Shown in pieces: positions 25,742 through 30,910 of a DNA stretch of 64,000 nt; the stretch's first letter is position 1, and the number at the start of each line of letters is the position of its first letter. Origin of the DNA: Cloacibacillus porcorum (GTDB lineage Bacteria > Synergistota > Synergistia > Synergistales > Synergistaceae); the NCBI RefSeq assembly GCF_001701045.1, contig NZ_CP016757.1, positions 1,295,501-1,359,500 on the forward strand, read 5' to 3'. Position numbers and translations under genes: made by a program. The notes beneath the pieces were generated by a model. That model was not told the DNA's origin. It was given only the letters and a program-made list of their open reading frames with translations, and did no database searches.

Positions 25742-26052
25742 CCTTTGGTAAGGAAAAGAGATAAATGGAGATTTGTTTTTGTTTGTCATGCCGGGCTTGA
25801 CCCGGCATCCAGCGTCGTGGGGGTTTGCTTTTGCGTATCGTGAAAATAGGGCGAAGCCGCCGTTTGCCCTTGTCTTGTCGCTCCGGCCTCCGAGCTGGAG
25901 CCTAGAAGTGTGGGGTTTTGTGTCTTTGCTATGGGACGCGAGAAACCAGGACAGTGCCTTTAAACTACGGCTCTGAGGCTGTTTTGTTGATTTGTAGATG
26001 CGTACCGTGCTACCGAACACCTTGATTCTGCCGTATTTCGGGGAGGGAATAA
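25742..26052. other. Gene-free intergenic stretch with a GC palindrome
   Basis: No plausible gene. It holds the palindrome ATGCCGGG-CTTGA-CCCGGCAT (25788-25808) inside a 27-base segment, then low-complexity sequence. A 135-codon minus-strand ORF crosses the whole region, but it translates both repeats, has no ribosome-binding site and is rejected. Confidence 0.6.
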
Positions 26053-26448
26053 TTAAGAGTCATATTTTTTTGATGGATAGAGGTCTTTTTCGTATTTGAA
26101 TCCCCAGTTCATCATGGCGTAGAACAGAGGATAAAGGTCTCGTCCCTTTTCTGTGAAGGAATATTCCACTCGCGGCGGAATTTCATTATATTGCTCCCTG
26201 TGGATAAGGCCATTATCTTCTAAATCCCGGAGCGTGGAGGTTAGCATCGTGTTAGTGATTCCGGGTAGGTCTTTCTTCAATTCACCAAATCTGACCGTAT
26301 TGTGGATGCATAATTCATACAGAACGATATTTTTCCACTTACCCTGCAGCATCTCCATCACCAACGTAACAGGGCAGTTCCCCGACGGAGTGACAATCCC
26401 ATCATGGACTCGGTCAAGGAATTCTTCGTAGCTCATAACTTCGTTCAT
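26053..26448 (-). CDS. HxlR-family winged-helix transcriptional regulator
   Basis: 131 residues from ATG 26448, which follows AGGGAG; an upstream in-frame extension of 25 codons has no such site. Family landmarks: Cys25 in GNCPVTLVMEMLQGKWK, then RFGELKKDLPGITNTMLTSTLRDLEDNGLI (recognition helix) and YSFTEKGRDL (wing). HxlR proteins are small dimers, some sensing thiol oxidants through the N-terminal Cys. It is divergent from the uvrA2-like gene, with four GTAC words between them, so it probably controls that promoter and itself. Confidence 0.92.
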   Translation of the reverse strand: MNEVMSYEEFLDRVHDGIVTPSGNCPVTLVMEMLQGKWKNIVLYELCIHNTVRFGELKKDLPGITNTMLTSTLRDLEDNGLIHREQYNEIPPRVEYSFTEKGRDLYPLFYAMMNWGFKYEKDLYPSKKYDS

Positions 26449-26498
26449 ATCTGCCTCTCCCTTTGCCGAACAGTTATAATTCCCGTCCGCTCCGTTAG

Positions 26499-26536
26499 GT
26501 ACGGGAAAACGTACCATGTACAAAATTTCTGCGTAC
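26499..26536. promoter_or_regulatory. Cluster of four GTAC words, possible HxlR operator
   Basis: GTAC occurs at 26499, 26511, 26518 and 26533 in the divergent region between the HxlR gene and the uvrA2-like gene, ending just upstream of the uvrA2 -35 box. HxlR-family operators are often short GTAC-containing dyads, so this is a good candidate binding region. It is not verified. Confidence 0.45.
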
Positions 26537-26564
26537 TTGATTGCTTTTACACACTTAATATAAT
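26537..26564 (+). promoter_or_regulatory. Predicted sigma-70-type promoter of the uvrA2-like gene
   Basis: TTGATT (26537-26542), a 16-nt spacer and a perfect TATAAT (26559-26564). Transcription would start near 26571, leaving a ~98-nt leader before the ATG at 26669. The leader has a RBS-like AGGTAAAGGG and a partial dyad (GTGAGC...GTTCAC). Confidence 0.6.
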
Positions 26565-26668
26565 TAATATATCACGTCAGCGATACGCTGGGAAGAGAAC
26601 TGTAACACATAGACAGTGAGCTGTACTGTGGTTCACGGAAGAGATAACAGGTAAAGAGGTAAAGGGAT

Positions 26669-29179
26669 ATGAAAAGAGAGCATACGGCTCCCACACATAT
26701 AGAGGTGCGCGGGGCGAGGGCAAACAATTTAAAGGATATTGACGTGGATATCCCGCTGAACCGCTTTGTAGCGGTCTGCGGCGTCTCCGGTTCGGGAAAG
26801 AGCACGCTCGCGACGGATGTTCTTTACGCGGAGGGGGCGCGGCGGTATTTACAGGCGCTGTCTACGTACACGCGCCGCCGTATCGGGCAGTCGGCGCGTC
26901 CCGACGTGGAGCGTATTCGTTATCTGCCGAGTGCCGTGGCGCTGCGTCAGCGTCCAGTAGTTCCCGGTATCAGGAGCACGCTGGGAACGATGAGCGAGCT
27001 TCTCAATATTCTGCGTCTTTCGTTTTCGCGGCTTGGTTCGCATCTTTGCCCTAACGGGCACAGGCTTCCCCCCTCTCTTGATACGGCGCGTCTGGGAAGG
27101 TGCGTATGTCCGGAGTGCGGCGTGGAGTTCGTCCCCTTTTCTGCCGAGGATTTTGCCTTCAATTCGCTGGGAGCCTGCCCCGAATGCCGCGGCACCGGCG
27201 TTGTGGAGGAGATTGACGAGAGCAGGCTTATCGCCGATCCCAATAAGAGTATCAACGAGGGGGCGGTCGCGGGCTGGCGGGTGCCCGGTTCGTTTTTTTA
27301 TGTTCCCACGGCGGAGGCGATTGGTATTCCCATTGATATCCCCTTCAAGGATTTGACGGAGGAGCAGAAAGGCTTTGTTCTTCATGGGAAGATGAGCGGT
27401 AAGACTCAGGTCTCCGTAATGACCGGAGCAGGCAAGGTATATGAGATGAAGGCGCAGTATCTGAACGCGGCGGACGCGGTGGCGCACGCCTACAACGGCA
27501 CCGAGAGCGAAAAAATCAGGACGAGGCTCGCGGAGCAGTTCTATCATATCGGGATCTGCCGGAGCTGCCACGGTGGCCGTTTCGCGCCGAAGCTTCTCAC
27601 GACGCTTCTCGCGGGGAAAAATATCGCCGAGGTCTCGGCTCTTTCTCTCGCCGCTTTGGAGGCTTACGCGGGTTCCGTGCCGGAGACGCTGCCAGAGGTG
27701 ATGCGCCCGATGGCGCGGAAGCTCATGGGGGAGCTGGCCGAGGGGATCGCGCCGCTGCTAGCCCTGGGGCTTTCTTATCTGTCGATCGACCGCGGAGGCG
27801 GCACTTTGTCAACGGGCGAGCTGCAGCGCGTGCAGCTCGCGCGGACGCTGCGCAGCGAAACGACGGGCGTGCTTTATGTGCTGGACGAACCCTCCATCGG
27901 CCTGCACCCCCAAAACGCGGAGGGGCTGACGGATGTATTCAGCAGGCTGCGGGAGCAGGGCAATTCTCTCGTCGTGGTCGATCATGACATAGATATCCTG
28001 CGCCAGGCCGATTGGCTGATCGAAATGGGCGTGGGGGCCGGAGAAAACGGAGGGAGGGTGATCGCCGAGGGGACGGTGGCGTCGGTCGAAGGAGATCCAC
28101 GTTCCGTTATCGGCGGGTATCTCTCGGGCGCGGAGAGGCTGCTGGTCCGCGAAGGCGGCGAAGCGGCAAAGGATAAGGGCGTGATATCCGTCGAGGTTGA
28201 TGAAATTTATACTTTGAAGGATGTAACGGTGCGGATTCCGTGCGGGAAGCTTACGGCGGTAACCGGCGTCTCAGGCTCCGGCAAGTCGACGCTGATTCTC
28301 GACTGCCTAGTCCCCGCGGTGCGGGCGGCGGTGAGGAGGCAGCCCCTGCCCTCTCACGTCGTGAGGGCGGAGACGGCAGGCATCCGCCGCGTCGTCATGG
28401 TCGACGCTGTCCCCGTGGGGCAGAATACGCGTTCGACGCTGGCGACCTATTCCGGCATCATGGACGGGGTGAGGGCCCTGTTCGCGGCGACTGATGAGGC
28501 TCAAAAAAGAGGCTGGGACGCGGGGCATTTTTCCTATAATCTGAAAAGCGGCGCCTGCGGGACCTGCGGCGGTACGGGGATCGTATCTCTCGATATCCAG
28601 TATCTGCCCGATATGGATCTGGTCTGTCCCGACTGCGGCGGCAGGAGGTATTCGCCGGAGACGCTTGAGGTCAGGTGGCAGGGGATGAGCGTCGCCGATG
28701 TGCTCGACCTCTCTGTGGACGAGGCCTGCGGGGTATTCAAAGATAACGGCCTCATCCGCGAAAAGCTGGAGTCGCTCGAGGGGCTTGGCCTCGGTTATCT
28801 GAAGCTGGGAGAGGCGACCTCCGCGCTCTCCGGCGGCGAGGCGCAGCGAATGAAGCTCGTATCGGAGCTGGGGCGTGACCAGCGGGGGACTCTTTTCGTC
28901 TTTGACGAGCCGACGACGGGGCTTCACCCGCAGGATATCCGCCGACTCCTGCAGATATTTGACCGGCTGATCGGGGCGGGGGGCACGGTCGTGGTCATTG
29001 AACATGACCTTGATATGATCGCCAACGCGGATTTTATCGTCGATATGGGCCCCGGCGGCGGGGAGGAGGGCGGTCGGATCGTCGCCTCTGGCGGCGCGAG
29101 GGATATATGTGGCAGTGAGGTGAGTTTAACGGGAAGGTATCTCAGAAGGTATGCGGAAAGTTATGGCGTCAGGTGGTGA
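26669..29179 (+). CDS. UvrA2-type excinuclease ATPase lacking the UvrB-binding domain
   Basis: 836 residues against ~940 for UvrA. Two ABC modules: Walker A GVSGSGKST at 38-46 and again near 533; signatures LSTGELQRVQLARTL and LSGGEAQRMKLVSEL; Walker B VLYVLDEPSIGLHP and FVFDEPTTGLHP. Zinc modules CPECRGTG and CGTCGGTG are kept. The region after the first Walker A, where UvrA carries the UvrB-binding insertion, is only about 50 residues (HLCPNGHRL...CVCPECG). Such short class II UvrAs are linked to resistance to DNA-intercalating drugs rather than standard repair. The divergent HxlR regulator supports an inducible stress or drug role. Confidence 0.88.
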   Translation: MKREHTAPTHIEVRGARANNLKDIDVDIPLNRFVAVCGVSGSGKSTLATDVLYAEGARRYLQALSTYTRRRIGQSARPDVERIRYLPSAVALRQRPVVPGIRSTLGTMSELLNILRLSFSRLGSHLCPNGHRLPPSLDTARLGRCVCPECGVEFVPFSAEDFAFNSLGACPECRGTGVVEEIDESRLIADPNKSINEGAVAGWRVPGSFFYVPTAEAIGIPIDIPFKDLTEEQKGFVLHGKMSGKTQVSVMTGAGKVYEMKAQYLNAADAVAHAYNGTESEKIRTRLAEQFYHIGICRSCHGGRFAPKLLTTLLAGKNIAEVSALSLAALEAYAGSVPETLPEVMRPMARKLMGELAEGIAPLLALGLSYLSIDRGGGTLSTGELQRVQLARTLRSETTGVLYVLDEPSIGLHPQNAEGLTDVFSRLREQGNSLVVVDHDIDILRQADWLIEMGVGAGENGGRVIAEGTVASVEGDPRSVIGGYLSGAERLLVREGGEAAKDKGVISVEVDEIYTLKDVTVRIPCGKLTAVTGVSGSGKSTLILDCLVPAVRAAVRRQPLPSHVVRAETAGIRRVVMVDAVPVGQNTRSTLATYSGIMDGVRALFAATDEAQKRGWDAGHFSYNLKSGACGTCGGTGIVSLDIQYLPDMDLVCPDCGGRRYSPETLEVRWQGMSVADVLDLSVDEACGVFKDNGLIREKLESLEGLGLGYLKLGEATSALSGGEAQRMKLVSELGRDQRGTLFVFDEPTTGLHPQDIRRLLQIFDRLIGAGGTVVVIEHDLDMIANADFIVDMGPGGGEEGGRIVASGGARDICGSEVSLTGRYLRRYAESYGVRW

Positions 29180-29212
29180 GGTTGCCCTGACGGAATCTCC
29201 GCCGCAGATAAA

Positions 29213-29243
29213 GCCGCCGTCGTGGAAACCGGCGGCGGGAGTT
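29213..29243 (+). terminator. Possible terminator after the uvrA2-like gene
   Basis: GCCGCCG (29213-29219) pairs with CGGCGGC (29230-29236), then GGGAGTTTTA. It lies between two convergent genes. The T-run is short and offset, so confidence is modest. Confidence 0.45.
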
Positions 29244-29295
29244 TTATGGCGGCGCTGTTTGTGGTTTGCCGCTCCTGTAAGGTTTTAATTCGTTT

Positions 29296-30090
29296 TTACA
29301 TGCGGGAGGCGGCGTCGAAGGCCAGCGGTGAGCGTTCGCATTCGTCGGGTTCCATCGACAGCTGAAAGCAGAGGGAGCTGCCCTTCATCTTTTCGCTGGC
29401 GTAGGAGAGGCCGTTTGTGCGTTCGTCGAGGAAGGGATGGTCTATCTGCTCCGGGTCGCCTACCATGACGATCTTCGTGCCTTTGCCGACGCGCGTGATG
29501 ATGCCCTTTGCCTGTTTGGGCGTGAGGTTCTGCGCCTCGTCGATTATCAGGTATGTTTTGGTGATGGTGCGTCCGCGCACGAAGTTGAGCGCCTCGGCGG
29601 CGATATAGTCGCGCGCGAAAAGTTCCTCTATTTTGCCCGCAAGCTCATATTCGTCTTTGTAACGCTCTTTCTCGTCGCGGTCGACGAGCACCTCGAGGTT
29701 GTCGATGACGGGGCGCAGGAAGGGGGCGATCTTCTCCTGCTCGCTGCCCGGCAGGAAGCCGATATCGGAATCGAACTGCACGTTGGGGCGCGTGACCAGT
29801 ATCCGGCGGTATTCCCTCTCCGGGCCATTCATAATTTTTTCCAGCCCCACCGCGAGAGAATAGAAGGTCTTTGCCGTCCCTGCGGGGCCCTTTATTATCA
29901 CGAGCGGCGCGGCATCGGCGCTTTGCATCAGCGCCTCCTGCATGAAGCGCTGGCCGACGTTCTTCGGCTTGATGCCGAAGGGCTCTTTTTTCAGGCTCTC
30001 CAGCGGCACGATGCACTTTCCGTTGAAGCGTCCGAGCAGGCTCTTTTTATCCGAGAGCTCGGAGCGTATGATCACAAATTGATTTACCAC
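29296..30090 (-). CDS. PhoH-like ATPase domain protein (3' half of a split PIN-PhoH gene)
   Basis: 264 residues from GTG 30090. PhoH ATPase: FGIKPKNVGQRFMQEALM, Walker A VIIKGPAGTAKTFYS, Walker B TYLIIDEAQNLTPKQ, and IVMVGDPEQIDHP. In PhoH2 proteins this domain is fused after a PIN RNase domain; here the PIN part lies just upstream in another frame. The PhoH frame continues upstream of the GTG as DEKTPFLPV without a stop, showing that the GTG is not a natural domain boundary. PhoH2 proteins couple ATPase/helicase activity to RNA cleavage. It may be made by reinitiation, by +1 frameshifting, or not at all. Confidence 0.85.
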   Translation of the reverse strand: MVNQFVIIRSELSDKKSLLGRFNGKCIVPLESLKKEPFGIKPKNVGQRFMQEALMQSADAAPLVIIKGPAGTAKTFYSLAVGLEKIMNGPEREYRRILVTRPNVQFDSDIGFLPGSEQEKIAPFLRPVIDNLEVLVDRDEKERYKDEYELAGKIEELFARDYIAAEALNFVRGRTITKTYLIIDEAQNLTPKQAKGIITRVGKGTKIVMVGDPEQIDHPFLDERTNGLSYASEKMKGSSLCFQLSMEPDECERSPLAFDAASRM

Positions 30091-30109
30091 CGGAAGAAAG
30101 GGCGTTTTC

Positions 30110-30664
30110 TCATCTCCCCTTATAAGGTAGACCGTCTTCGACGGGGAGCCCCTTTTTCTTGAAACCGCCCATGTTTTCGTCGGCGGTATAAACTACCGCG
30201 CGTCCCGTGTACTGTTCCGTAAGTCTGGGGGACTGCTCGGTGGTGAAGTCCTCCGCCGTGAGCCCCATCATCTGCGCTTTGAGCCGCACGAGGATATCTT
30301 TGCTGACGAGGATGATGCGCTCTCCGCCGTCCGCGAGCCCCTTGCATATTTTTAGGATGCGGTTGTCGTTTTTTACCTCGGGAAGTCCCTCGGGGAGCGT
30401 GACATTTACAAAATTGGCCTCCACCCTCAGAGTTCCGCCGTCAGGCAGCTTCACGCCCGCGAGCAGGTTACCCGCGAGCCGCAGCTTTTCGAGGATGCGG
30501 ATGGTCTCCCGCGCGTTGGCTCCGCGCTCTCCCTCGTCGCTTTTGAGCCTGTCGAGCTCCTCCAGACAGACGATCGGCAGCACCACGTCGTTCTCTTCAA
30601 ATGACAGGAGAGCCAGCGGCGACTGGATCATCACATTTGTGTCGAGCACATAGACCTTGTTCAT
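30110..30664 (-). CDS. PIN-domain protein (5' half of a split PIN-PhoH gene)
   Basis: 184 residues from ATG 30664 (GGGAGG 6 nt upstream; the GTG at 30670 is less likely). PIN RNase residues are visible: VLDTNVMI (first Asp), LEELDRLK, NDNRILKICKGL and VLVSKD-like ILVSKDILVRLKA. The protein ends YKGR followed by TGA. Dropping one base at GGG-AGA (30113-30118) would continue as KGDEKTPFLPVVNQFV into the PhoH domain, giving a ~456-residue protein of PhoH2 size. The gene pair is divergent from tatD. Confidence 0.82.
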   Translation of the reverse strand: MNKVYVLDTNVMIQSPLALLSFEENDVVLPIVCLEELDRLKSDEGERGANARETIRILEKLRLAGNLLAGVKLPDGGTLRVEANFVNVTLPEGLPEVKNDNRILKICKGLADGGERIILVSKDILVRLKAQMMGLTAEDFTTEQSPRLTEQYTGRAVVYTADENMGGFKKKGLPVEDGLPYKGR

Positions 30665-30910
30665 AGACACCCTCCCAAAAAGCTGATTTTACTGTTTGGA
30701 TTATATGAATAGAATGTAAAGCCCTCTGCCGCCGAATGGTAAAAGTTATGTAACGGGGCGGCCGCACAGCGCGGCCCATTGGCGGCGGCCGTATGCGGGA
30801 TACCGGCGCGGCGGTCTTGTATTGTTAAAATAGTGTAAAAACAGCGGCGAAGTTTTTTGTACCCGCGCCGCGATCTGACGAAGGCGCGGCGGCAGTTCAC
30901 TCTTTTATTG

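Follow-up and report, generated by a model that had tools for sequence, protein, structure and literature searches.

PhoH2 is described as an RNase domain joined to an RNA-helicase domain in one protein of ~50 kDa (PMC4826407). Genes in which the reading frame changes are numerous, and a survey that counted 206,991 genes with frame transitions across 1106 genomes found apparent use of recoding in only 146 of 19,430 clusters, versus 4010 pseudogene clusters (PMC3711429). The +1 frameshift of prfB has been reported from 100% of 13 Synergistota, with a Shine-Dalgarno (SD)-like element that precedes the slippery sequence by three bases (PMC12421855). No paper on a split PhoH2 was found in the literature searched on related topics, and among the solved structures searched only a distant PhoH chain was found.

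In the window analyzed here, a stretch of 64,000 nucleotides of Cloacibacillus porcorum, two overlapping frames span positions 30670-29296 on the minus strand. The first (30110..30670, 186 aa, starting at GTG 30670 or ATG 30664) encodes the PIN domain of PhoH2 and ends, read on the minus strand, with CTA CCT TAT AAG GGG AGA TGA, the frame being closed by the TGA stop at 30110..30112. The second, which encodes the PhoH ATPase/helicase (29296..30090 on the minus strand, 264 aa from GTG 30090), lies in the +1 frame relative to the PIN frame, stays open from 30192 onward and contains GDEKTPFLPVVNQFV. The PIN_4 domain is complete in the first open reading frame (Pfam, E 6e-29, profile positions 1-131 of 132), and the second carries the PhoH domain (E 2.3e-47, positions 2-197 of 205). 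When compared with the fused relative L032, the PIN frame is 79.5% identical over residues 3-178 and the PhoH half is 85% identical. The frames, codons, TGA stop and downstream PhoH reading given in the preliminary description of this locus are thus all correct.

To place the two frames among their relatives, genomes were scanned for loci related to the PhoH half, and 53 were fetched. Both PIN and PhoH matches were present in 51 of these, and in all 51 the two lay in the same frame. The two loci lacking a PIN match are L076, which is ended by a contig edge, and L078, in which the PIN part is missing; L055, one of the 51 two-domain loci, lacks the 5' part of PIN. L055 (Sellimonas caecigallum), without a PIN start, and L078 (a Clostridium MAG), without any PIN match, are both Clostridia-type PhoH2 loci whose PhoH half is intact and whose PIN deficits are located upstream of position 2501. 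The records of the nearest relatives include Synergistaceae and Candidatus Caccocola MAGs. A search with a fused relative as the query found a PIN-PhoH gene in 4 of 185 Synergistota genomes, three of them fused (G028, 467 aa; G015, 514 aa; G165, 429 aa and open to the contig edge) and one, the present genome (G000), split. The two samples are not independent, as the L032 and G028 genes are identical and L037 and G165 apparently represent one gene. The split arrangement was found in none of the 51 two-domain loci and in none of the three other Synergistota genomes with the gene. Because PIN and PhoH share one frame in 51/51 relatives with both domains, the two frames are halves of one PhoH2-type gene. 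This bears out the proposal in the preliminary description that one PhoH2-size protein is interrupted by a one-base frame change; relatives with clearly separate genes, which would have spoken against it, were not found among the 51, all of which are fused.

The position of the frame change was determined by alignment. The nucleotide alignment with L032 shows 78% identity over 1381 bases, and its only gap is a single base at 30132-30133, where the GG on the minus strand (30132..30133) holds one base more than in the closest fused relatives and changes the frame. Homology therefore places the frame change at GAC|GG|TC (30133-30132), ~15 bases before the GGG codon. Likewise, when the proteins of 19 chosen relatives are aligned, the PIN frame agrees with them as far as GFKKKGLPVED, and past the gap it is the PhoH frame, reading VYLIRGDEKTP, that continues the alignment, where the relatives mostly show [VLIC][YF] (VYVAS, LYEVA, VYLLS, VFSAP). 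By the same homology, the last seven residues of the 186-aa PIN frame (GLPYKGR) are out of the ancestral frame, and the seven codons between the frame change and the TGA do not belong to the ancestral PIN protein. The earlier observation of a frameshift within 30085-30130 is confirmed, while its position was slightly off, the change lying two bases outside that interval by homology.

The age of the break was assessed from substitutions in the two halves. The dN/dS values relative to L032 were 0.096 for PIN and 0.070 for PhoH, both rough figures since synonymous sites are near saturation. With L033 as the outgroup, unique amino-acid changes numbered 11 (PIN) and 9 (PhoH) in the window and 12 and 15 in L032. 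With L034, the respective counts for the window and L032 were 6 and 9 in PIN and 11 and 10 in PhoH; with L035, they were 4 and 10 in PIN and 12 and 13 in PhoH. No sign of relaxed selection after the break was seen in either half, given dN/dS below 0.1 and no excess of changes, and for these two reasons the break is either very recent or artefactual. Judged by these substitutions, the PhoH2 gene is one that was under constraint until very recently. The lack of decay fits a recent mutation, an error and a cost-free frame change alike and does not separate them.

Programmed or tolerated +1 slippage, for instance from GGG to GGA before AGA, would join the halves and yield a PIN-only protein together with full-length PhoH2. 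Re-pairing in the +1 direction is possible for GGG_A, a slip at GGG would leave the protein length unchanged and change only about six amino acids of a variable linker, the dN/dS of both halves suggests selection, and the present genome's own prfB uses a +1 site. As a positive control, this prfB carries CTT TGA C; the reading is MVVLPISTVMTDLRSSFDELRESL up to the change and DLPSIEAKL beyond it. The bases preceding CTTTGAC in this gene (L149, G000:C1:1840215-1841255), GAGCTGCGTGAAAGT, contain no clear AGGGGG element. At the PhoH2 locus, however, the ancestral frame change maps upstream of GGG, where GAC-GGT is not slippery, and the conserved VY pattern persists in the +1 frame, in codons that would go unread after a slip at GGG. 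Since nothing would keep this pattern in an unread frame, long-standing slippage at GGG is unlikely. The SD-like AAGGGGAG (30114-30121, minus strand) overlaps the proposed slip codon itself, whereas in prfB the element stands three bases upstream of the site (PMC12421855), and the codon after GGG is AGA rather than a stop.

The sequence context offers little else in favor of slippage. AGA is only moderately rare, five nearby genes using it at 5.9 per 1000 codons, and homotriplet codons are to be expected by chance, being present in 2216 of 2428 28-codon stretches of the same number of nearby genes (91%). Folding revealed no notable downstream RNA structure (z -1.28 and 0.26). The AAG GGG AGA motif (30113..30121, minus strand) and the SD-like motif are both absent from L032 and L033, and we judge the two to be coincidental. 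No slippery codon at the frame change, no spaced SD-like or structural stimulator and no conserved split arrangement were found. Slips at AAA_A (30157), GGG_C (30151) and CCC_G (30145) were also considered and are unsupported, as they would replace PIN-frame residues that align with the relatives. Slippage at GGG-AGA, one of the options raised earlier, was rejected as the likely reading on account of the position of the break, the non-conservation, the misplaced SD-like run and the homotriplet background. Programmed frameshifting at this locus therefore appears unlikely from the comparisons made, and we consider programmed or tolerated slippage very improbable. The more specific idea of a lineage-specific, recent low-efficiency +1 frameshift that would tune the ratio of PIN-only nuclease to a little full-length PIN-helicase likewise seems very improbable to us.

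It is in our view improbable that the locus yields two working products, with the PhoH helicase initiated independently of the PIN nuclease. Both domains are complete, and near its head the PhoH frame has a single start codon, GTG 30090, which lies ~20 bases after the TGA and opens at VVNQFV, where the conserved part of the PhoH half begins, so that initiation there, perhaps as re-initiation after the TGA, could be envisaged. However, no properly spaced ribosome-binding site precedes GTG 30090, the nearest SD-like run ending, by eye, ~23 bases upstream, and separate PIN and PhoH genes occur in none of the 51 two-domain relatives. An ancestral state with separate genes was rejected for the same reason, being shown by no relative.

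PhoH2 is patchily kept. A segment (25742..30902) that carries PhoH2 together with a UvrA-like ATPase and a regulator of the HxlR type is missing at the corresponding place of the sister species G001, in which the flanks of window positions 25742-30902 are only 65 bases apart, 5.16 kb being absent; no other PIN-PhoH gene was found in G001. The absence from G001 first suggested a recent insertion of PhoH2. This was rejected, since L032 has the same TatD/Tgt arrangement as the window, with ~176 bases between PhoH2 and the TatD match. Because L032 keeps PhoH2 beside TatD-Tgt, G001 most likely lost the gene, and its absence there would suit a dispensable gene. G014, which has the same genus placement as G028, gave no PhoH2-type match. 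In the relatives tested, the UvrA-like gene was not found near PhoH2, and no PhoAT-like partner of PhoH2 was apparent in L032. The viral_contigs collection holds no second copy of the exact site, and plasmids hold only distant PhoH pieces.

Two of the possibilities put forward in the preliminary description, an inactivating mutation and a sequence error, are thus the ones left to be weighed. Our preferred reading, to which we assign a probability of roughly 0.6, is that a very recent natural loss-of-function mutation, one extra base, broke an ordinary fused PhoH2 that this lineage can spare. The extra base would then be carried by the organism itself rather than being confined to the assembly. 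We rate mutation above error, by about 2 to 1 in our judgement, because a gene discarded by relatives is a likely place for natural inactivation. A sequencing or assembly artefact, behind which the gene would be whole, is the less likely but still plausible reading. Single indels beside a repeated base are a common type of error, and apart from the extra base PhoH2 shows no decay. On the other hand, the assembly consists of one contig of 3,585,187 bases and is 99.98% complete, the site is GG only and not a long homopolymer, and PhoH2 is in any case patchy and lost in this lineage.

Nor are errors rampant according to a frame survey against syntenic stretches of G001, which flagged 7 rows among 276 genes (about 300 kb), 4 of them without a covering open reading frame. 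Five of the 7 flagged rows were judged by their pattern and two were aligned; the aligned rows proved to be small indels between the genomes, with lengths of 4 bases and 1 base, and most of the 7 are in our judgement over-called starts or antisense open reading frames. Frame breaks are thus rare in this genome, at a rate that could be compatible with natural indels or with a few residual errors. In the comparison of G001 against G000, 10 of 279 were flagged without a covering open reading frame, versus the 4 of 276 in the reverse direction, and many of these may be antisense open reading frames; G001:C1:2149506-2151233 is one example of the G001 genes with apparent internal stops against G000. 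In the stretches fetched from G000:C1 1026001-1626000, 5000 bases are N.

If a recent mutation is indeed responsible, the gene would have started as an ordinary fused PhoH2, with an N-terminal PIN nuclease and a C-terminal PhoH RNA-helicase ATPase, and would have received the extra base in the variable linker between them, which would shift the PhoH half to the +1 frame. Ribosomes starting at the PIN start would finish at the TGA (30110-30112) and release a complete PIN domain without the helicase. The PhoH half would probably not be made, or only in traces via accidental slippage or re-initiation, and we infer that it is not translated. An untethered nuclease domain would remain, with little or no helicase half, and the PIN half could be active alone, since its domain is complete. 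The locus would illustrate, on a small scale, the loss of an RNA-processing enzyme that is kept only patchily, held by 4 of 185 genomes in the phylum, gone in the sister species and interrupted here.

With respect to the known systems, the domains and their order are those of PhoH2 (PIN-PhoH fusion, NCBIfam NF053827) as seen in the fused relatives. Three fused relatives match this family at about positions 2-417 of 427 with 209-232 bits, and the split halves score 116.7 and 97.3 bits, below the 680-bit cut-off. Because the present clade, its fused relatives included, falls far below this cut-off, it is a distant branch. In contrast to PhoH2 proper, in which both domains share one frame, the two frames here differ by one base, and we therefore claim a broken PhoH2 gene and not a working member. 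With the prfB-type +1 frameshift the locus shares the need for a +1 change near a TGA; unlike in prfB, no slippery codon immediately precedes the stop, the SD-like run is misplaced and conservation is lacking. The locus should not be listed among recoding candidates, and its annotation should read frameshifted PhoH2. It resembles frameshifted pseudogenes and annotation errors, which likewise show an isolated one-base break where relatives have the gene whole, and no difference from these is apparent except the recency of the break. Taken together, the split PhoH2 is most likely an ordinary frameshifted allele rather than a novel mode of gene reading.
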